Part shown: piece after piece, positions 30,348-38,808 of the stretch | How the letters are laid out: each line of letters starts with the position of its first letter | How positions within the stretch are numbered: the stretch's first letter is position 1 | Assembly (NCBI RefSeq): GCF_013371465.1 | Contig: NZ_JABWDU010000003.1 | Coordinates: 62,001 to 126,000 of the forward strand | Direction: 5' to 3' | DNA: 64,000 bases | Source of the DNA: Ensifer oleiphilus | Lineage (GTDB): Bacteria; Pseudomonadota; Alphaproteobacteria; Rhizobiales; Rhizobiaceae | Program-made: the position numbers and the translations under genes | The notes under the pieces: generated by a model | What the model was told of the DNA's origin: nothing | Seen by the model: the letters and a program-made list of their open reading frames with translations, nothing else | The model's database searches: none

Positions 30348-31439
30348 CTATTCGGCGGCATGCACCAGTTCGTCACTGTGAAACTCTTCGCGATAGGGTT
30401 TTGCCGTCGGCGGCAGCTGCCGCTTCAGGAAATAATCCTCATTCCTCAGTTGCCGAAGGAAGGCCGGGATCATCTCGCGATAGCCGTGGAGCATGGATGG
30501 GTTCGGCTCCGGCAGGTCATGTTTGATCATTTCGTGGAGCCGCGGCAGCGCGTGGTAGGGCACCATCGGGAACATGTGATGTTCGACGTGGTAGTTCATG
30601 TTCCAGTAGATGAAGCGGCTGATCGGGTTCATGTAGACCGTGCGGCTGTTCAGCCGGTGGTCCGTGACGTTGTCGGCGAGCCCGCCATGCTGCAGCAGGC
30701 CCGTCAGCACGTGGTGCCAAGCACCATAGAGGCGTGGCAAGCCGATCAACATCAAGGGCAGGATCGAGCCGAGATAAAAGGACAGGCCGATTGTAACGAG
30801 ATAGATCGCAAACCAGATCCGCGCGACGCGGATCGCCTTCGACTGCTCCATTTCCGGGATGAAAGTCTTCTCGGCAGCACTGATGACTCCGAAGGCATTG
30901 CGGACCATGTCGACCACCGCATGCCAGACATCGAGAATGCCGAAGAAATTCAGCACCAGCCGAAGCAGATCCGGTGGCCGCATGACGGCGATTTCCGGGT
31001 CCCGGCCGACGATAACAGTGTCGGTATGATGCCGGGTATGGCTCCAGCGCCAGGTCACCGGATTGCGCATGATCATGAAACAGGCGACCTGGTAGACGAC
31101 GTCGTTCATCCACATCGTCTTGAAAGCCGTGCCATGACCGCACTCGTGCCAGCGGCTGTCCGAAGCCGAGCCATAAAGAACGCCGTAAGCGAGAAAGAAG
31201 GGAACAGCCAGCCAGCTGCCCCAGAAATAGACGCCGAGGCCGCCGAAGAGAATGAGACTGCCGAACCAGATGGCGGTATCACGAATGGCCGGCCCATCCT
31301 CACGCTTCATCAGTTCCTTCATCTGCTTGCGCGGGATGTCGGTGTGATACCACTCCGCCGCCGATAGCCCGTTGGCGACGGCCGCTTGAGCGTCGCGCCC
31401 AAGCAGGCTGTAATCACGCTTCGTCGGAACGATCGTCAT
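30348..31439 (-). CDS. mocD: Membrane fatty-acid-desaturase-type oxygenase, MocD-like
   Basis: A 363-residue integral membrane di-iron enzyme. The three histidine boxes are HECGHGTAF (about residues 103-111), HTRHHTDT (about 139-146) and HVEHHMFPM (about 306-314), with membrane segments around GSLILFGGLGVYFWGSW and AIYLVTIGLSFYLGS. With the Rieske ferredoxin and reductase downstream it makes a complete three-component oxygenase. The closest named relative by layout is MocD of the rhizopine (3-O-methyl-scyllo-inosamine) pathway, where it is proposed to remove the O-methyl group; this is inference here. The start at 31439 (GGAGGAGAAA site) is chosen over 31457. It is divergent from the LacI-type regulator gene. 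Confidence 0.8.
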   Translation of the reverse strand: MTIVPTKRDYSLLGRDAQAAVANGLSAAEWYHTDIPRKQMKELMKREDGPAIRDTAIWFGSLILFGGLGVYFWGSWLAVPFFLAYGVLYGSASDSRWHECGHGTAFKTMWMNDVVYQVACFMIMRNPVTWRWSHTRHHTDTVIVGRDPEIAVMRPPDLLRLVLNFFGILDVWHAVVDMVRNAFGVISAAEKTFIPEMEQSKAIRVARIWFAIYLVTIGLSFYLGSILPLMLIGLPRLYGAWHHVLTGLLQHGGLADNVTDHRLNSRTVYMNPISRFIYWNMNYHVEHHMFPMVPYHALPRLHEMIKHDLPEPNPSMLHGYREMIPAFLRQLRNEDYFLKRQLPPTAKPYREEFHSDELVHAAE

Positions 31440-31478
31440 CGTTTTCTCCTCCCGCAATCGGCCGCATCTCGCCGGCCA

Positions 31479-31586
31479 TTCCTCATCTCATGGAACTGAC
31501 GATAGGTTGACTTTTGCAAGCCTTCAATGCAGTGATGATATATTCTCTCAAATACCATCAGATCTTGCATTTCATGAATGATGGAA
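31479..31586. promoter_or_regulatory. Divergent mocD/lacI-type intergenic region with two weak inverted repeats
   Basis: Two 17-base inverted repeats of the form TTYC-N9-GGAA lie here: TTCCTCATCTCATGGAA at 31479-31495 and TTTCATGAATGATGGAA at 31570-31586. The latter is just before the regulator's ribosome-binding site. They are less perfect than, and arranged differently from, the palindromes in front of mocC and the binding-protein gene, so they are only candidate operators. Confidence 0.3.
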
Positions 31587-31604
31587 TCATTTCAGGGGTG
31601 TTCC

Positions 31605-32636
31605 ATGAGCAACCGACCGACAATCGCCGATCTCGCCCGCGCCGCAGGCGTCAGCGTTGCCACCGTGGACCGCGTTCTCAACGGCCGACATCCGGTACGC
31701 GAGGAGACGGCCCGCCGGGTCTATGACGCCGCCAAGGGGATCGGCTATCACGCAGTCGGCCTGCTGCGTCAGCGCGTCTTTGAGGATCTGCCGCAATACC
31801 GCCTCGGCTTCCTGCTGCAAAAACCGCAGCAGGCTTTTTATCAGTTTGTCGCCAAGGAGATGGAGAACGCAGCCCTTGCGCTTTCAACCGTCCGTGCGGT
31901 GCCACAAGTGGAATTTGTCGCCAACTCGACACCGACAGGCATCACCGAGAAACTGCGAGCAATGGCCGCCCGCAATCAGGCTATTGCGCTTGTGGCGCCG
32001 GATTATCCTGCGGTGACAACTGTCGTCGAAGAATTGAAGGAGCGCGGGATTCCGATCTTCTCGCTACTTTCGGATTTTGCCGCCGGCGTGCGTGAAGGCT
32101 ATGTCGGCTTGAACAATCACAAGGTCGGCAGGACTGCCGCCTGGATGATTGCCAAGGCAGCGAAGCGTCCCGGCAAGGTCGCAGCATTCGTCGGCAGCCA
32201 TCGGTTTCTCGGCCACGAATTGCGCGAAATCGGCTTCCGCTCCTATTTCCGCGAGCACGCCCCCGACTTCGAAGTGCTCGACACGATGGTCAATCTCGAT
32301 ACGGCCGAAATCACCCACGAAGCGACACTCAATCTGTTGCAGCGTCACCCGGATCTGACCGGCTTCTACGTCTGCGGCGGCGGAATGGAAGGCGCGATCT
32401 CGGCGATCCGCGAGGAAAAGCTCGAAGGCAAGCTGATCGCCGTCGTCAACGAGTTGACCCCGGAATCGCGAGCCGCCCTCGCCGACGATGTCGTGACACT
32501 CGCGATCTCGACGCCGACCGCAGCCTTGGCCCGGGAGACGATCAATCTGATGATACAGGCGATCGACAAGGGGCCGACAGGTGCGCCCGGACAGACCTTC
32601 CTGCCGTTTGATCTTTTCACGCCGGAGAACATCTGA
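31605..32636 (+). CDS. LacI-family transcriptional regulator of the moc-like locus
   Basis: A 343-residue LacI/PurR-type repressor. The helix-turn-helix is TIADLARAAGVSVATVDRVL (residues 6-25) with the hinge GRHPVREETARRV after it. A periplasmic-binding-protein-like effector domain follows (about 65-330; YRLGFLLQKP, EGYVGLNNHKVGRTAAW, FYVCGGGMEGA), close to the sugar/polyol-binding subgroup. It is divergent from mocD and upstream of the mocC and ABC genes, so it probably controls both arms in response to the imported compound. The ATG at 31605 (AGGGG site) is used; an in-frame ATG at 31578 would add nine unrelated residues. Confidence 0.9.
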   Translation: MSNRPTIADLARAAGVSVATVDRVLNGRHPVREETARRVYDAAKGIGYHAVGLLRQRVFEDLPQYRLGFLLQKPQQAFYQFVAKEMENAALALSTVRAVPQVEFVANSTPTGITEKLRAMAARNQAIALVAPDYPAVTTVVEELKERGIPIFSLLSDFAAGVREGYVGLNNHKVGRTAAWMIAKAAKRPGKVAAFVGSHRFLGHELREIGFRSYFREHAPDFEVLDTMVNLDTAEITHEATLNLLQRHPDLTGFYVCGGGMEGAISAIREEKLEGKLIAVVNELTPESRAALADDVVTLAISTPTAALARETINLMIQAIDKGPTGAPGQTFLPFDLFTPENI

Positions 32637-32663: not shown

Positions 32664-33713
32664 TTAGCCTTTCGATTTATTTGCGGCGATTTCCTCGATC
32701 AAATAATCAATTGCCTGTAGCGGCTCCAGGACTTTCCACGACTTTGGATGGCGATAAACGGGGTAAAGACTGAAAGCTGCGAATGTTAGCTGATCGACTG
32801 TAGGGCGTGCGGTTGCCCGCCGCGCATGCGCCGCTTGCGCTCGATCCTCCACGCGGTCGTCTGTCAGCCCCCAACCTGCATAGAACGGCGTTGCATAACA
32901 ACGGACGGGAAGGCCCCGCAAAAGCGCGTCGAAGCCCATTTGGCTGGAGACAGTCCAGACTTCATCCACGACGGCTAGGATTGCGGCCGCAGAGACCTTG
33001 TCGGCCATCAGGGTCACGCCTGGCAATTTCGATGCCCGCTCGGTCATGTAGCCCTTGCGGTGACCGGCGATAACGTCTGGATGCGTGCGAACGATGACTT
33101 GGCCACCACTTGCAATCGCGTCGTCCAACATTTTGTCAAAGGCCGAAGCCGAACCCAGCGCCTTCTCGACGGAAACATCGCCAAAAACCTGATCGACGAG
33201 CAGGAGCCTGCGCCGTGTCGACGGGTCGAGACGAGGCTCGCTGTGAGGGAGATTGTTGTATTTCGACAGCCTATGCTCGACCAGCGCCTCACGGATCGGT
33301 GCACCGATGTCATGCGCAAGGCCGCCCGCTGCATCGCGGATCAGCAATTCCAATCGTGAGGCGCGAGCAGCATCGACCGGCAGCGCCTTGTCATCGACGA
33401 CAATCGAGATCGGAATACTTCCATCCTTACCGAGACCAACGGAGCGCAGGAAACCGTCCTCGAGATGCCAATGCGGTAGCTTGCGCAATCGCGCAATTCG
33501 CATTGCAGTCTTTGCCGGCAACCGGCCACCCCATGAGACGATACCGTCGAGCCCAGGCGCAAGCGTCGAACGAAGCCGCGCCTCGCCGAAATACCGGCCC
33601 AGCCAGGGAAAAGCCTTGTGCACGAAGTAAGTCGCTCCGAGCCTTGCTCCCCATTTCGGGTGCCAAGGGCGGGCTTGCATCACGGCAAGCGTTGAATTGT
33701 CGAGCACGTCCAT
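32664..33713 (-). CDS. KpsC-like capsular polysaccharide biosynthesis protein
   Basis: A 349-residue protein of the capsule synthesis family that contains the beta-Kdo transferases KpsC and KpsS. Diagnostic segments are HLEDGFLRSVGLG (about residues 61-73; KpsC-type), VIVRTHPDVIAGHRKGY, and VDEVWTVSSQMGFDALLRGLPVRCYATPFYAGWGLT near the C-terminus (first 20 residues VDEVWTVSSQMGFDALLRGL). It has one module, where KpsC has two, so it resembles the short rhizobial relatives such as RkpJ or one KpsC half. It is expected to help make the Kdo linker or modify a K-antigen in the cytoplasm. The frame continues to 33965, but the added residues have no family resemblance; the ATG at 33713 is preferred although its ribosome-binding site is weak. 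It sits oddly within the moc-like locus, convergent with the regulator gene. Confidence 0.75.
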   Translation of the reverse strand: MDVLDNSTLAVMQARPWHPKWGARLGATYFVHKAFPWLGRYFGEARLRSTLAPGLDGIVSWGGRLPAKTAMRIARLRKLPHWHLEDGFLRSVGLGKDGSIPISIVVDDKALPVDAARASRLELLIRDAAGGLAHDIGAPIREALVEHRLSKYNNLPHSEPRLDPSTRRRLLLVDQVFGDVSVEKALGSASAFDKMLDDAIASGGQVIVRTHPDVIAGHRKGYMTERASKLPGVTLMADKVSAAAILAVVDEVWTVSSQMGFDALLRGLPVRCYATPFYAGWGLTDDRVEDRAQAAHARRATARPTVDQLTFAAFSLYPVYRHPKSWKVLEPLQAIDYLIEEIAANKSKG

Positions 33714-33990
33714 TTTTTCACTCGGCCATCGCGGTGGATTGCGCCAAGAACCACCTTGCAAAGGCAAATGCAAACCGAACTTTCGACGTGATCGCCGTTT
33801 GACGGTAGCTTTGTTGCTCCCATGGCCGATGAGCGCAAGACCAAGCCTGATTGAGCGCGAACACGGCATGCCGGCGCAACTGCCATGAAGTTGATTGAAT
33901 CCCATCATTGACGATCGACAATCTTGCAGCGATGCAAGTGCTTTGACGGCGCGTTTGCTCGCCACCTCCTAGCCATCGGCGTTTTGTAAC

Positions 33991-34030
33991 GCTAGCAATA
34001 AATGGAATGAACGTTCCATTTATTGCTAGC
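33991..34030. promoter_or_regulatory. 40-bp palindrome, probable operator of mocC
   Basis: Perfect 17-bp arms GCTAGCAATAAATGGAA (33991-34007) and TTCCATTTATTGCTAGC (34014-34030) surround the six bases TGAACG. The centre, ATGGAATGAACGTTCCAT, is a typical LacI-family operator shape and closely matches the site at 34945-34962. It lies 30 bases before the mocC start codon, so it would overlap the promoter or leader. The neighbouring LacI-type protein is the likely ligand. The palindrome is seen directly; the regulator pairing is inference. Confidence 0.75.
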
Positions 34031-34059
34031 AACAAACCGAACCTGGAGGAGACATTCCC

Positions 34060-34872
34060 GTGACCACCCTACCCTTCGCACTCAACCACATGACCACGCC
34101 CGCCCTGCCACTCGACGCATTCTTTGGCCTTGCGCGCTCGCTCGGCATGACGGCCGTCGAAATCCGCAACGATCTGACCGGTAACGCCATTCTCGACGGA
34201 ACGCCCGCCGCGGACGTGGCAACACTTGCGCGACGTCACGGCGTGACAATCATCTCCATCAACGCCCTTCAGCGCTTCAATGAATGGAACGAAATCCGCG
34301 CGACCGAAGCCGCCCACCTTATCTCCTATGCCAAGGATTGCGGTGCAAAGGCGCTCGTTCTTGTGCCTGTCAATGACGGCAGCGGCCAGGCCGATGGCGA
34401 GCGCCAGGCAAATCTGAAGCAGGCTCTTGTCGCACTGAAGCCGATGCTTGATGCCGCCGGAATCATGGGTCTTGTCGAGCCTCTCGGCTTCGAAATCTGC
34501 TCGCTTCGCTCCAAAACCGAGGCTGTCGACGCTATAGTGGCGATTGGCGGCGAGAGCAGCTTCCGTATCGTGCACGACACCTTCCACCACCATCTCGCTG
34601 GCGAAACGGCAATCTACCCTGAGATAACCGGCCTTGTGCATATCTCCGGCGTGACTGACCGCAACGTGGCGATCGCAGATCTGCGCGACTCGCACCGCGT
34701 TCTGGTCGACCAGAATGACACCCTCGACAATGTCGGTCAGATCAGGCGCCTGCTGGCGGCGGGTTATGCCGGTCCGTTCTCGTTCGAACCTTTTGCCGAT
34801 GAAGTCCACGGGCTTGTCGACCCCGTCAGCGCCCTCAAGGCCAGCATGGCTTACATCGAAGCCGGGCTCTGA
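34060..34872 (+). CDS. mocC: TIM-barrel sugar isomerase/epimerase of the IolI/MocC type
   Basis: A 270-residue AP-endonuclease-2 superfamily barrel. Segments matching Bacillus IolI (inosose isomerase) include ISINALQRFNEWN, VEPLGFE (metal Glu), IVHDTFHHHLAG (metal Asp), LVHISGV (metal His) and FSFEPF (metal Glu), so the divalent-metal site is complete. MocC of rhizopine catabolism belongs to the same family, and the setting next to a sugar ABC importer and a MocDEF-like oxygenase supports that name. A direct substrate cannot be read. It starts with GTG after a strong GGAGGAGA site and is the first gene of the plus-strand arm. Confidence 0.75.
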   Translation: MTTLPFALNHMTTPALPLDAFFGLARSLGMTAVEIRNDLTGNAILDGTPAADVATLARRHGVTIISINALQRFNEWNEIRATEAAHLISYAKDCGAKALVLVPVNDGSGQADGERQANLKQALVALKPMLDAAGIMGLVEPLGFEICSLRSKTEAVDAIVAIGGESSFRIVHDTFHHHLAGETAIYPEITGLVHISGVTDRNVAIADLRDSHRVLVDQNDTLDNVGQIRRLLAAGYAGPFSFEPFADEVHGLVDPVSALKASMAYIEAGL

Positions 34873-34944
34873 CCAGCGGCACCGATCGATCACTGGAAAA
34901 CGAAGCGAGACGCCGAAAGACACTCTTGACGGCGTCCGCATAAA

Positions 34945-34962
34945 ATGGAATACATATTCCGT
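34945..34962. promoter_or_regulatory. Second operator-like palindrome, upstream of the binding-protein gene
   Basis: The sequence ATGGAATACATATTCCGT matches the core of the 33991-34030 palindrome (ATGGAATGAACGTTCCAT) in both half-sites and spacing (GGAA-N6-TTCC), and its flanks are again AT-rich with GCA/TGC edges. It lies 148 bases upstream of the binding-protein start. It is a likely second site for the same LacI-type regulator and implies a separate promoter for the ABC genes. Confidence 0.65.
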
Positions 34963-35109: not shown

Positions 35110-36039
35110 ATGAAAAAGTTCCTGCTGGGTACAGCCATGGCCGTGATGATGTCGACGGCGGCGCATGCCGAAACCATCGGCGTCTCGATGGCGCAGTTCG
35201 ACGACAACTTCCTGACGGTCCTGCGCAACGGCATGTCCGACTACGCAAAGACGCTCAATGGCGTCGACCTGCAGATCGAAGACGCACAGAACGACGTTTC
35301 GAAGCAGCAGAGCCAGATCCAGAACTTCATCGCCGCCGGCGTTACCGCCATCATCGTCAACCCTGTCGATACCGACGCAACGGCCGCCATGTCGAAGATC
35401 GCCGCCGACGCGGGTATTCCGCTCGTCTACGTCAACCGCGAACCTGTCAACGTCGACACGCTGCCGGAAAAGCAGGCTTTCGTCGCTTCGAACGAACAAG
35501 AATCCGGCACGCTGCAGACCCAGGAAATCTGCAAGATGCTGAACGGCAAGGGCAAGGCCGTCGTCATGATGGGCGAGCTCTCCAACCAGGCCGCCCGCAT
35601 GCGCACCAAGGACATCCATGACGTCTTGGCGACGGAAGCCTGCAAGGGCATCGAGATCGTCGAAGAGCAGACCGCCAACTGGTCGCGTACCCAAGGCTCC
35701 GACCTTGTGACCAACTGGCTTTCTGCCGGCCTGGAATTTGACGCCGTTATCTCCAACAACGACGAAATGGCGATCGGCGCGATCCAGGCGCTCAAAGCCG
35801 CTGGCCGTTCGATGGACAGCGTCGTCATCGGCGGTATCGATGCCACCCAGGACGCCCTTGCTGCGATGGCCGCCGGCGACCTCGACGTGACGGTGTTCCA
35901 GAACGCGGCCGGCCAGGGCAAGGGCTCGGTCGACGCAGCGCTCAAGCTCGCCAAGGGCGAAGCGATCGAGAAGAAGGTCTACATCCCCTTCGAACTCGTC
36001 ACCAAGGAAAACATGGCCAGCTATCAGGCGAAGAACTGA
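35110..36039 (+). CDS. mocB: Periplasmic sugar/rhizopine-type ABC binding protein, MocB-like
   Basis: A 309-residue class B (ribose/inositol type) binding protein. The start at 35110 follows a GGAGGAGAAA site and gives the Sec signal MKKFLLGTAMAVMMSTAAHA, cleaved before ETIG; a frame open from 34945 would bury it. The mature part begins IGVSMAQFDDNFLTVLRNGM, with the QNFIAAGVTAIIVNPVDTDA and AVISNNDEMAIGA segments of RbsB-like proteins. MocB, the rhizopine-binding protein, belongs to this family; the name rests on context. It captures the substrate for the transporter encoded just downstream. A GC-rich hairpin follows the stop. Confidence 0.78.
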   Translation: MKKFLLGTAMAVMMSTAAHAETIGVSMAQFDDNFLTVLRNGMSDYAKTLNGVDLQIEDAQNDVSKQQSQIQNFIAAGVTAIIVNPVDTDATAAMSKIAADAGIPLVYVNREPVNVDTLPEKQAFVASNEQESGTLQTQEICKMLNGKGKAVVMMGELSNQAARMRTKDIHDVLATEACKGIEIVEEQTANWSRTQGSDLVTNWLSAGLEFDAVISNNDEMAIGAIQALKAAGRSMDSVVIGGIDATQDALAAMAAGDLDVTVFQNAAGQGKGSVDAALKLAKGEAIEKKVYIPFELVTKENMASYQAKN

Positions 36040-36199: not shown

Positions 36200-37747
36200 A
36201 TGACCATGACGCTCAGTCCGACAACGATGGCCGCCGTGCGCGCCAGCGGCGCCGTACCCAATGCCGAATACCTTCTCAACGTCGAAGGCATTCGCAAGGA
36301 ATTTCCCGGTGTCGTCGCGCTCGACGACGTGTCGTTCCGGCTTAAGCGCGGCACGGTCCATGCGCTGATGGGCGAGAACGGCGCCGGCAAATCGACACTG
36401 ATGAAGATCCTTGCCGGCATCTACACGCCCGACAAGGGCGAGGTCCGGCTGAAGGGTGTCGACATCAGGCTGAAATCGCCGCTCGACGCACTCGAAAACG
36501 GCATTGCCATGATCCATCAGGAACTGAACCTGATGCCGTTCATGACGGTCGCCGAGAACATCTGGATCCGGCGCGAGCCGAAAAACCGTTTCGGGTTCGT
36601 CGATCATGGCGAAATGCGGCGCATCACCGCCCGGCTGTTCGACCGCCTGAACATCAAGCTCGATCCCGAAATAGAAGTCCGCCACCTCTCGGTTGCCAAC
36701 AGACAGATGGTCGAGATCGCCAAGGCAGTCTCCTACGAATCCGACGTCTTGATCATGGACGAACCGACCTCGGCCCTGACGGAGCGCGAAGTTGCCCACC
36801 TGTTCGAGATTATCCGTGATCTCCGCTCACAGGGCATCGGCATCGTCTACATCACCCACAAGATGAATGAGCTGTTCGAGATCGCCGACGAGTTCTCGGT
36901 GTTCCGCGACGGCAAATACATCGGCACACATGCCTCGAGCGACGTCACCCGCGACGACATCATCCGCATGATGGTCGGCCGCGAAATCACTCAGATGTTC
37001 CCGAAAGAGGACGTACCGATCGGCGACGTCGTGCTTTCGGTCAAGAACCTGACGCTCGACGGCGTGTTCCGCGACGTTTCCTTCGACGTGCGCGCCGGTG
37101 AGATCCTCGGGATCGCCGGGCTTGTCGGCTCCGGCCGCTCGAATGTCGCCGAGACGCTGTTTGGCGTGACGCCTGCAAGCTCGGGCACGATCGCCATCGA
37201 AGGCAAGACAGTTTCGATCGACAGCCCCAACACAGCCATCCGCAACCGCATGGCGTTCCTGACGGAAGACCGCAAGGACACCGGCTGCCTGCTGATCCTT
37301 GATGTACTCGAAAACATGCAGATCGCAGTGCTGCAGGACCGCTTCGTCAAGGGCGGCTTCGTGGCGGAGAAGGACATCACCGCGGCTTGCGAAGAGATGA
37401 GCCGCAAGCTTCGGGTCAAGACGCCCAATCTGCAGGAGCGGATCGAGAACCTCTCGGGCGGCAACCAGCAGAAGGTGCTGATCGGTCGCTGGCTGCTGAC
37501 CAACCCACGCATCCTGATCCTCGACGAGCCGACGCGAGGGATCGATGTCGGCGCCAAGGCGGAAATCCACCGCCTCGTCACCGAACTCGCCCGCAACGGT
37601 GTCGCCGTCATCATGATTTCTTCAGAAATGCCGGAGGTGCTGGGCATGAGCGATCGCATCATGGTCATGCATGAAGGGCGCGTTACCGGCATCCTCGACC
37701 GTGCCGAGGCAACCCAGATCAAGGTCATGGAACTCGCCGCCAGCTAA
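36200..37747 (+). CDS. Sugar ABC importer double ATPase (RbsA/MglA type)
   Basis: A 515-residue protein with two fused ABC modules, as in RbsA, MglA and XylG. The first has Walker [10 protein letters not shown] (about residues 61-69), signature [15 protein letters not shown] and Walker [12 protein letters not shown]. The second has the degenerate Walker [13 protein letters not shown] usual for this family, signature [15 protein letters not shown] and Walker [13 protein letters not shown]. It powers uptake of the substrate captured by the MocB-like protein, at the inner membrane. The start at 36200 has a GGGGAGGCA site; the 160-base gap from the binding protein holds the hairpin. It is followed 35 bases later by the permease gene. 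Confidence 0.93.
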
Positions 37748-37782: not shown

Positions 37783-38808
37783 ATGGAAACCAATGTCGCC
37801 GCACAAGGCACCGGCTCGGCCCTTCCGGCTGCCAAGCGCCGGATGCCGCCCGAATTCAGCATCTTCCTGGTGCTGATCGGCATCGCGCTCGTCTACGAAA
37901 TCCTCGGCTGGATTTTCGTCGGGCAGAGCTTCCTCCTAAACCCGCAGCGCCTGACGATCATGATCCTGCAGGTTGCCGTGATCGGCATCATCGCCGTCGG
38001 TGTGACCCAAGTGATCATCACAGGCGGCATCGACCTTTCCTCCGGTTCCGTCGTCGGCATGACCGCGATGTTCTCGGCAAGTGTGGCGCAGGCCTCCACC
38101 TGGCCGCGGGCGCTCTATCCGTCGCTCACCGACCTTCCCGCCATCGTGCCGATCGGTCTTGGCATCGGTGTTGGTCTCATTGCCGGCCTCATCAACGGCC
38201 AGTTGATCGCCCGAACCAAGATCCCGCCCTTCATCGCCACGCTCGGCATGATGGTTTCGGCGCGGGGCATTTCCAAGTGGTACACCAAAGGTCAGCCGGT
38301 CTCGGGCTTAACCGAGCAGTTCAATTTCATCGGCACCGGCATCTGGCCCGTTGTCGTGTTCCTGGTCGTCGCCATCATCTTCCATATTGCGCTGCGCTAC
38401 ACCCGCTACGGCAAGTTCACCTATGCGATCGGCGCAAACGTTCAGGCTGCGCGCGTCTCGGGCATCAATGTTGAGGCGCATCTGATCAAGGTCTACGCCA
38501 TTGCCGGCATGCTCGCGGGCCTTGCAGGCGTCGTCACCGCCGCCCGCGCTCAGACGGCGCAGGCCGGCATGGGCGTGATGTATGAACTCGACGCGATCGC
38601 GGCGACCGTCATCGGCGGCACATCGCTGACCGGCGGCGTCGGCCGCATCACCGGCACCGTCATCGGTACGATCATCCTCGGGGTCATGACCTCAGGCTTC
38701 ACCTTCCTTCGGGTCGACGCCTACTACCAGGAAATCGTCAAGGGTCTGATCATCGTCGCTGCCGTCGTCATCGACGTCTACAGACAGAAGAACCGCAAGA
38801 AAGCCTGA
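37783..38808 (+). CDS. Sugar ABC importer permease (RbsC type)
   Basis: A 341-residue inner-membrane permease of the BPD_transp_2 family with 8-10 membrane segments. Family blocks include GGIDLSSGSVVGMTAM, GLINGQLIARTKIPPFIATL, RYGKFTYAIGANVQAARVSG and ATVIGGTSLTGGVGRITGT. It forms the translocation pore, probably as a homodimer, for the moc-like importer. A GGGAGGAAC ribosome-binding site precedes the ATG. It is the last gene of the plus-strand arm and ends just before a strong terminator. Confidence 0.93.
   Translation: METNVAAQGTGSALPAAKRRMPPEFSIFLVLIGIALVYEILGWIFVGQSFLLNPQRLTIMILQVAVIGIIAVGVTQVIITGGIDLSSGSVVGMTAMFSASVAQASTWPRALYPSLTDLPAIVPIGLGIGVGLIAGLINGQLIARTKIPPFIATLGMMVSARGISKWYTKGQPVSGLTEQFNFIGTGIWPVVVFLVVAIIFHIALRYTRYGKFTYAIGANVQAARVSGINVEAHLIKVYAIAGMLAGLAGVVTAARAQTAQAGMGVMYELDAIAATVIGGTSLTGGVGRITGTVIGTIILGVMTSGFTFLRVDAYYQEIVKGLIIVAAVVIDVYRQKNRKKA

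Follow-up and report, generated by a model that had tools for sequence, protein, structure and literature searches.

Two palindromes in a myo-inositol uptake locus

Which protein reads the two related palindromes that flank a xylose-isomerase-like gene in Ensifer oleiphilus? The initial annotation assigned both to the nearest regulator, a LacI-type protein, in a moc-like (rhizopine) locus. We analyzed a stretch of 64,000 nucleotides (the window) together with the rest of the genome and related loci. The features concerned are listed here, and the TIM barrel gene keeps its earlier label mocC.

31605..32636, plus strand: LacI-family regulator (LacI HTH and Peripla_BP_4 domains)
33991..34030, no strand: site 1, a 40-bp palindrome with a predicted IolR-type core GGAATGAACGTTCC (34004-34017) and extended outer arms
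34060..34872, plus strand: mocC, encoding a xylose-isomerase-like TIM barrel protein that corresponds to SMb20711 (putative inosose isomerase)
34945..34962, no strand: site 2, predicted IolR-type operator ATGGAATACATATTCCGT, 5′ of the binding-protein gene
35110..36039, plus strand: sugar-type substrate-binding protein (IbpA, myo-inositol), 92.6% identical to its S. meliloti equivalent in the position of SMb20712
36200..37747, plus strand: ABC transporter ATPase, IatA-like
37783..38808, plus strand: ABC transporter permease, IatP-like

The genes 3′ of the palindromes follow the order TIM barrel protein, sugar-type binding protein, ATPase and permease. The same order is found on a 1.64-Mb plasmid in one annotated S. 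meliloti record, which we infer from gene order and identity to be SMb20711-14. By these likenesses the Ensifer locus is predicted to correspond to SMb20712-14, the transporter for myo-inositol in S. meliloti, and to SMb20711, the putative inosose isomerase in front of it. According to PMC3454389, SMb20712-14 form an ABC transporter operon preceded by SMb20711, and the binding protein binds myo-inositol with a Kd of 0.47 uM. PMC2597717 reports that disruption of the S. meliloti transporter abolishes growth on myo-inositol. The rhizopine assignment was rejected, as the binding protein scores only 47 bits against the rhizopine-SBP model NF052284 (cut-off 420) and the genes match the myo-inositol transporter.

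The Ensifer locus differs from the SMb20711-14 type in the position of lacI, which lies upstream in Ensifer (here together with a capsule-type gene) and elsewhere in the 16 Sinorhizobium loci. The capsule-synthesis-type gene (PF05159) occupies 32664-33965 on the minus strand, between lacI and mocC. It recurs at the same place in Ensifer adhaerens Lc04 (L058), the closest named locus among the best 80 listed. The other four named Ensifer loci (L059-L062) have no capsule-type gene, and about 175 bp separate lacI from mocC there. A further palindrome, CTTGCAGCGATGCAAG, lies 5′ of mocC at 33923-33938; by eye it is kept in most of 16 Ensifer sequences and broken in L019.

The arms of site 1 (33991-34007 and 34014-34030) measure 17 nt each, are complementary at 17 of 17 positions and enclose a centre of 6 nt. 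No perfect inverted repeat in the window whose loop measures 3-10 nt is longer; the next independent ones have arms of 11 nt, and the longest arms in five mononucleotide shuffles of the whole window measured 9-11 nt. The second copy lies at 34945-34962, 943 bp from the first. As originally described, the palindromes are real, operator-like and paired. The shared pattern ATGGAATNNNNRTTCCRT has four exact places in the whole genome (6.76 Mb), two of which are sites 1 and 2. The other two were taken as chance matches: C30:162275 falls within a coding sequence, and C11:831638 on the border of two genes. When up to two mismatches were allowed, with palindromic places scored on both strands, we counted 36 forward and 39 reverse matches (75 rows) versus 10 and 11 (21 rows) for a reversed-pattern control.

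Sites 1 and 2 as predicted IolR operators

Both palindromes carry the core GGAA-N6-TTCC, which PMC2597717 gives as the alphaproteobacterial IolR motif. In Caulobacter it occurs upstream of ibpA, idhA, iolC and iolA. Deletion of iolR led to derepression, and PiolC activity rose when motif 1 of iolC was mutated. Mutation of the second iolC motif had no effect, so that one of the two motifs mattered. The same paper places the motif upstream of the S. meliloti transporter operon; the site before these genes is therefore already known as an earlier prediction. Its text, as searched, does not name SMb20711 or mocC. Two papers of the open-licence literature name SMb20711, and within that literature we found no paper on site 1 at SMb20711 or on its arms. 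An S. meliloti IolR study (Kohler 2011) is cited in PMC8877191. In E. aridi, iolC is reported not to be derepressed in the iolR mutant, which, like the second Caulobacter motif, counts against an IolR assignment. The operators of Caulobacter and S. meliloti described in PMC2597717 share with the Ensifer sites the core and the position before ibpA-iatA-iatP-type genes. Site 1 differs from them in its site-specific, co-varying outer arms and in its position before the TIM barrel gene.

Comparable sites accompany the iol cluster, iolR and idhA of this Ensifer genome. The iolR gene lies on another contig (C11, 273716-274576) and encodes an RpiR HTH (HTH_6) and a SIS domain; an RpiR-type iolR gene is present in all 16 genomes of the genus. 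The iolC, D, E and B genes and iolG score above the NCBIfam cut-off. Matches with two mismatches lie upstream of iolC (93-110 bp), iolR (69-86 bp), a Gfo/Idh gene in the iol cluster (71-88 bp) and idhA/iolG (about 230 bp); for the last two, gene starts were set by eye. The refuting condition named in the initial annotation, further occurrences in the genome, led to the sites at these inositol genes. Since they account for 4 of 65 two-mismatch rows in the genome, the match within this genome is of moderate weight by itself, and its standing therefore rests on conservation.

The pattern [AG]GAA-N6-TTC[CT] precedes iolR and iolC in 16/16 Ensifer genomes, and sites 1 and 2 are likewise present in 16/16, with site 1 reading GGAA-N6-TTCC in 11 and GGAA-N6-TTCT in 5. 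By eye, site 2 overlaps the −10 element of a probable promoter (TTGACG at 34926-34931, a 17-nt spacer and AATACA at 34949-34954), an arrangement kept in 21 of the 21 Ensifer rows that bear the site (22 rows, including two duplicates).

An IolR-like protein was found in 49/49 genomes searched from the best 80 loci, with 84-100% identity in 27, 57-60% in 20 and 37-38% in 2. In each of the 27 genomes whose IolR is close (84-100%), GGAA-N6-TTCC precedes the binding-protein gene. In the 57-60% class, 16 loci have neither the transporter beside mocC nor the motif. Four Shinella loci have the site despite an IolR of 58-59% identity, and the two loci of the 37-38% class have more distant matches, 265-325 bp upstream. 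Because of these six loci, the link between the site and a close IolR is not exclusive.

In the window, the GGAA-N6-TTCC palindromes stand before predicted genes of inositol transport or catabolism in a genome with an RpiR-type iolR. From the sequence match, the genome-wide pattern, the conservation and the co-occurrence, we conclude that IolR, the RpiR-family protein that represses inositol catabolism and has its gene on another contig, very probably (about 0.88) has its operators at sites 1 and 2. An assignment based on adjacency, to the nearest regulator, is thereby replaced by one based on comparative data, to a regulator encoded elsewhere. Binding, repression, effector and promoter positions we infer as follows. 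With IolR bound at site 2, over the presumed −10 element, the genes of the myo-inositol ABC transporter would not be transcribed, and IolR at site 1, 56 bp upstream of the start codon, would shut off the putative inosose isomerase gene. During inositol degradation IolR would be released by an intermediate, identified as DKGP in the published model for S. meliloti.

Further IolR-type sites in the genome

Two more transport operons carry sites of this type. The first, ATGGAATACAAATTCTAT at C26:39968-39985 (L009:6969-6986), precedes ugpB, whose product scores as UgpB above the NCBIfam cut-off. The pattern [AG]GAA-N6-TTC[CT] was found before ugpB in all 14 Ensifer loci recovered, at 159-161 or 180-188 bp, two of the 16 genomes giving no match at the set E-value. 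The second case consists of two sites 31 bp apart at C30:329383-329431 (L007:13384-13432), before an AfuB-like ABC operon. One of them is kept in 15/15 close orthologues (one of the 16 genomes has none), and three of three distant paralogues have no site. The AfuB-like operon adjoins a second lacI-type gene, whose product may instead own these sites, and a cluster with genes that by eye resemble an inositol monophosphatase and a phosphoesterase. These matches suggest that the TIM barrel gene and the two further transport operons (ugpB and AfuB-like) belong to the Ensifer inositol regulon. By computation, the predicted site before the TIM barrel gene and the two further operons are new, as are the arm covariation and the candidate LacI site described below.

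Outer arms of site 1

The outer arms are longer than a regulator requires and can form a hairpin, as the initial annotation had pointed out. The arm sequence GCTAGCAATAAATGG occurs once per arm at site 1 and has no exact match elsewhere in the genome; with no second exact place, a mobile or intergenic repeat element was rejected. An intrinsic terminator was also rejected, as no T run follows the stem 3′ and a terminator scan lists none at site 1.

The letters of the arms vary by species while their complementarity is mostly kept. The arms read GCTAGCAAT/ATTGCTAGC here and AGTAGCTAT/ATAGCTACT elsewhere, and other Ensifer pairs are AGGTTAT/ATAACCT, ACGTTAT/ATAACGT and CGATGT/ACATCG. We aligned the 19 distinct sequences among 22 Ensifer rows; two rows that duplicate L023 (L159 and L161) and one that equals it over this stretch (L157) were left out. 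The share of paired cells was 83.4% versus 76.2 in shuffles, 28 cells were doubly changed versus 12.2 (sd 2.8), and the covariation score was 0.233 versus 0.118; each value was reached in 0 of 500 shuffles. A control with slid partners gave at most 11 doubly changed cells and a covariation score of at most 0.092.

As related rows inflate covariation tests, we also ran simulations in which the arms evolved without constraint on the mocC tree, with a palindromic ancestor and six rate settings that bracket the observed identity of 0.588. The simulated mean was 4.4-12.1 doubly changed cells, and 28 was reached in 0/400 runs of each setting (0/2400).

Folding was tested with the 20-nt core fixed and the flanks shuffled. 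At site 1 the mean z was −3.07 in the 19 Ensifer sequences (p < 0.05 in 14) and −1.42 in 16 Sinorhizobium sequences (p < 0.05 in 6). Real flanks thus fold better than shuffled ones at site 1, unlike at site 2 (z +1.01 and +0.37), iolR (−0.18) and iolC (+0.27), where core-fixed folding gave no arm extension. The leader stretch 33979-34062, with bounds of our choosing, folds at −33.9 kcal/mol (z −8.33). On these comparisons the outer arms appear to be a separate, site-specific, hairpin-forming feature of site 1, and their covariation could stem from a leader-RNA stem or from a mutation process that corrects palindromes.

According to the first explanation, the arms pair as a stem within the 5′ leader of the mocC transcript, serving as a stabiliser or a translation control, in addition to the operator in DNA. 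We regard this as possible but less likely than not. Compensatory changes beyond chance and kinship, together with the site-specific folding, argue for it. So does the strand bias: the mRNA strand is the more stable one in 17 of 19 sequences (equal in one, worse in one), and one arm pair shows A-U, G.U and G-C. This difference is partly trivial, however, as it also arises from an inner U.G pair and from one position at which IolR sites tolerate T. Two of the five shuffle measures were not exceptional: pairs changed on both sides (7 versus 5.6, 89/500 shuffles as high) and pair types (19 versus 17.4, 127/500). In the simulations, 0-20 of 400 runs reached the paired share (0.78), and 1-82 of 400 reached the number of pairs. 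The arms are mostly lost in L019 (fold z +0.5) and partly unpaired in L022, L024, L026 and L027, and an A.C mismatch stands in the core in 2/16 Sinorhizobium sites. The consensus promoter scan lists no promoter at site 1. A promoter found by eye (TTGTAA at 33984-33989, 16 nt, AATGAA) would start transcription inside the palindrome, and therefore no stem could form.

The second explanation holds that a mutation process keeps the arms complementary without selection on RNA. Template switching during replication would turn imperfect palindromes into perfect ones. Such a process would account for arms that stay perfect or nearly so while their letters change fast among related sequences, and covariation tests cannot tell RNA selection from mutation, so that such a process could mimic the compensatory changes above. 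We still consider it rather unlikely. The other IolR palindromes in the same genomes have no such extension, the G.U steps and the strand bias are not predicted by it, and some Sinorhizobium folds contain asymmetric internal loops. The co-varying arms present a compact case of a wider question: does an operator double as an RNA structure, or does replication keep palindromes perfect?

Taken with the predicted IolR sites, the leader stem would make site 1 two elements in one, an IolR operator in DNA and a pairing-selected leader-RNA stem in the inosose isomerase mRNA. The extension of the arms would belong to Ensifer and, in a different register, to some Sinorhizobium, within an IolR regulon that reaches uptake of the ugpB/AfuB-like phosphoester and sugar-phosphate type. 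We hold this combined reading to be quite uncertain, with the odds against it.

Spacing of the two sites

Two sites about 940 bp apart, as found in 18 Ensifer and 16 Sinorhizobium loci, might allow DNA looping, a possibility raised in the initial annotation, through bound tetramers of IolR or LacI. Beyond the presence of two sites nothing favours such a loop, which we consider improbable. The spacing is 938-959 bp in the Ensifer and 935-947 bp in the Sinorhizobium loci, and over the full range of 935-959 bp no helical phase is constant. How far apart the sites lie depends largely on the length of mocC, and each site precedes its own gene.

The LacI-type regulator and its own candidate site

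It is highly improbable that the LacI-type protein encoded at 31605-32636 has the two palindromes as its operators: GGAA-N6-TTCC was found within 300 bp upstream of lacI in 0/59 loci, the motif never occurs at mocC in the 44 loci with an adjacent lacI and no transporter, and it is present where lacI lies elsewhere. The palindromes do resemble LacI-family operators in lying near a lacI-type gene, but the motif is not tied to lacI. In favour of LacI, the gene stands upstream of mocC in the window and in 59 of the 80 loci, five named Ensifer loci carry both lacI and the motif, and at C30:329383 and 329414 a similar pair of sites is placed between an ABC operon and a further lacI-type gene. The survey covered the best 80 named loci, with the motif counted as GGAA-N6-TTC[CT] or AGAA-N6-TTCC within 110 bp of mocC. 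The loci fall into four types.

lacI adjacent, no transporter: 44 loci, motif in 0, TGAT-N7/8-ATCA in 38
transporter, no adjacent lacI (Sinorhizobium-type): 18 loci, motif in 16 (missing in L118 and L135), TGAT site in 2
lacI and transporter both: 15 loci, motif in 5 (the named Ensifer), TGAT site in 7
neither lacI nor transporter: 3 loci, motif in 0, TGAT site in 0

Eight of the 15 loci with both genes have neither type of site at mocC.

Absence of LacI from Sinorhizobium was considered and rejected. An orthologue (82-87%) is encoded elsewhere, divergent from a desaturase gene in 16/16 loci, and the argument against LacI therefore rests on placement, not on absence. GGAA-N6-TTCC is upstream of none of these 16 displaced genes. 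LacI orthologues were found in 48/49 genomes, so the protein is hardly ever absent.

The LacI protein has a better candidate site of its own. The palindrome TGAT-N7-ATCA lies upstream of lacI in 53/58 loci, versus a mean of at most 0.3 in mononucleotide shuffles of the same lacI-upstream stretches. TGAT-N8-ATCA lies upstream of mocC in 44/58 loci with lacI versus 3/22 without. The count of three instead of two arises because the length limit also placed one locus whose lacI match is shorter among those without lacI (by difference, L128); the two mocC loci that have the TGAT site without an adjacent lacI are L069 and L071. The corresponding places in the window are as follows.

31536..31550, no strand: TGATATATTCTCTCA, candidate autoregulatory site of lacI, TGAT-N7-ATCA with one mismatch
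31579..31594, no strand: TGATGGAATCATTTCA, second candidate, just 5′ of the lacI start, TGAT-N8-ATCA with one mismatch
33892..33907, no strand: TGATTGAATCCCATCA, candidate LacI operator at mocC, TGAT-N7/8-ATCA type

TGATTGAATCCCATCA is the sole exact match to its pattern in the genome. The candidate LacI site is imperfect in that both copies upstream of lacI in the window have a mismatch, and an exact TGAT-N7/8-ATCA precedes only 1 of the 16 Sinorhizobium lacI genes. The simplest reading of these counts is that lacI goes with the TGAT site and the inositol transporter with IolR sites, and that Ensifer has both. For the LacI-type neighbour, the probable route to mocC is a palindrome of its own at 33892-33907; with IolR on site 1, mocC would therefore have two inputs.

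The divergent arrangement of lacI and the desaturase gene seen in the 16 Sinorhizobium loci is also present in the window, at 31400-31604. By eye, many loci of Ensifer, Sinorhizobium and Rhizobium share the lacI-upstream blocks TTGACTTT, CTCAATGCAG and TGATATATTCTMTCA.
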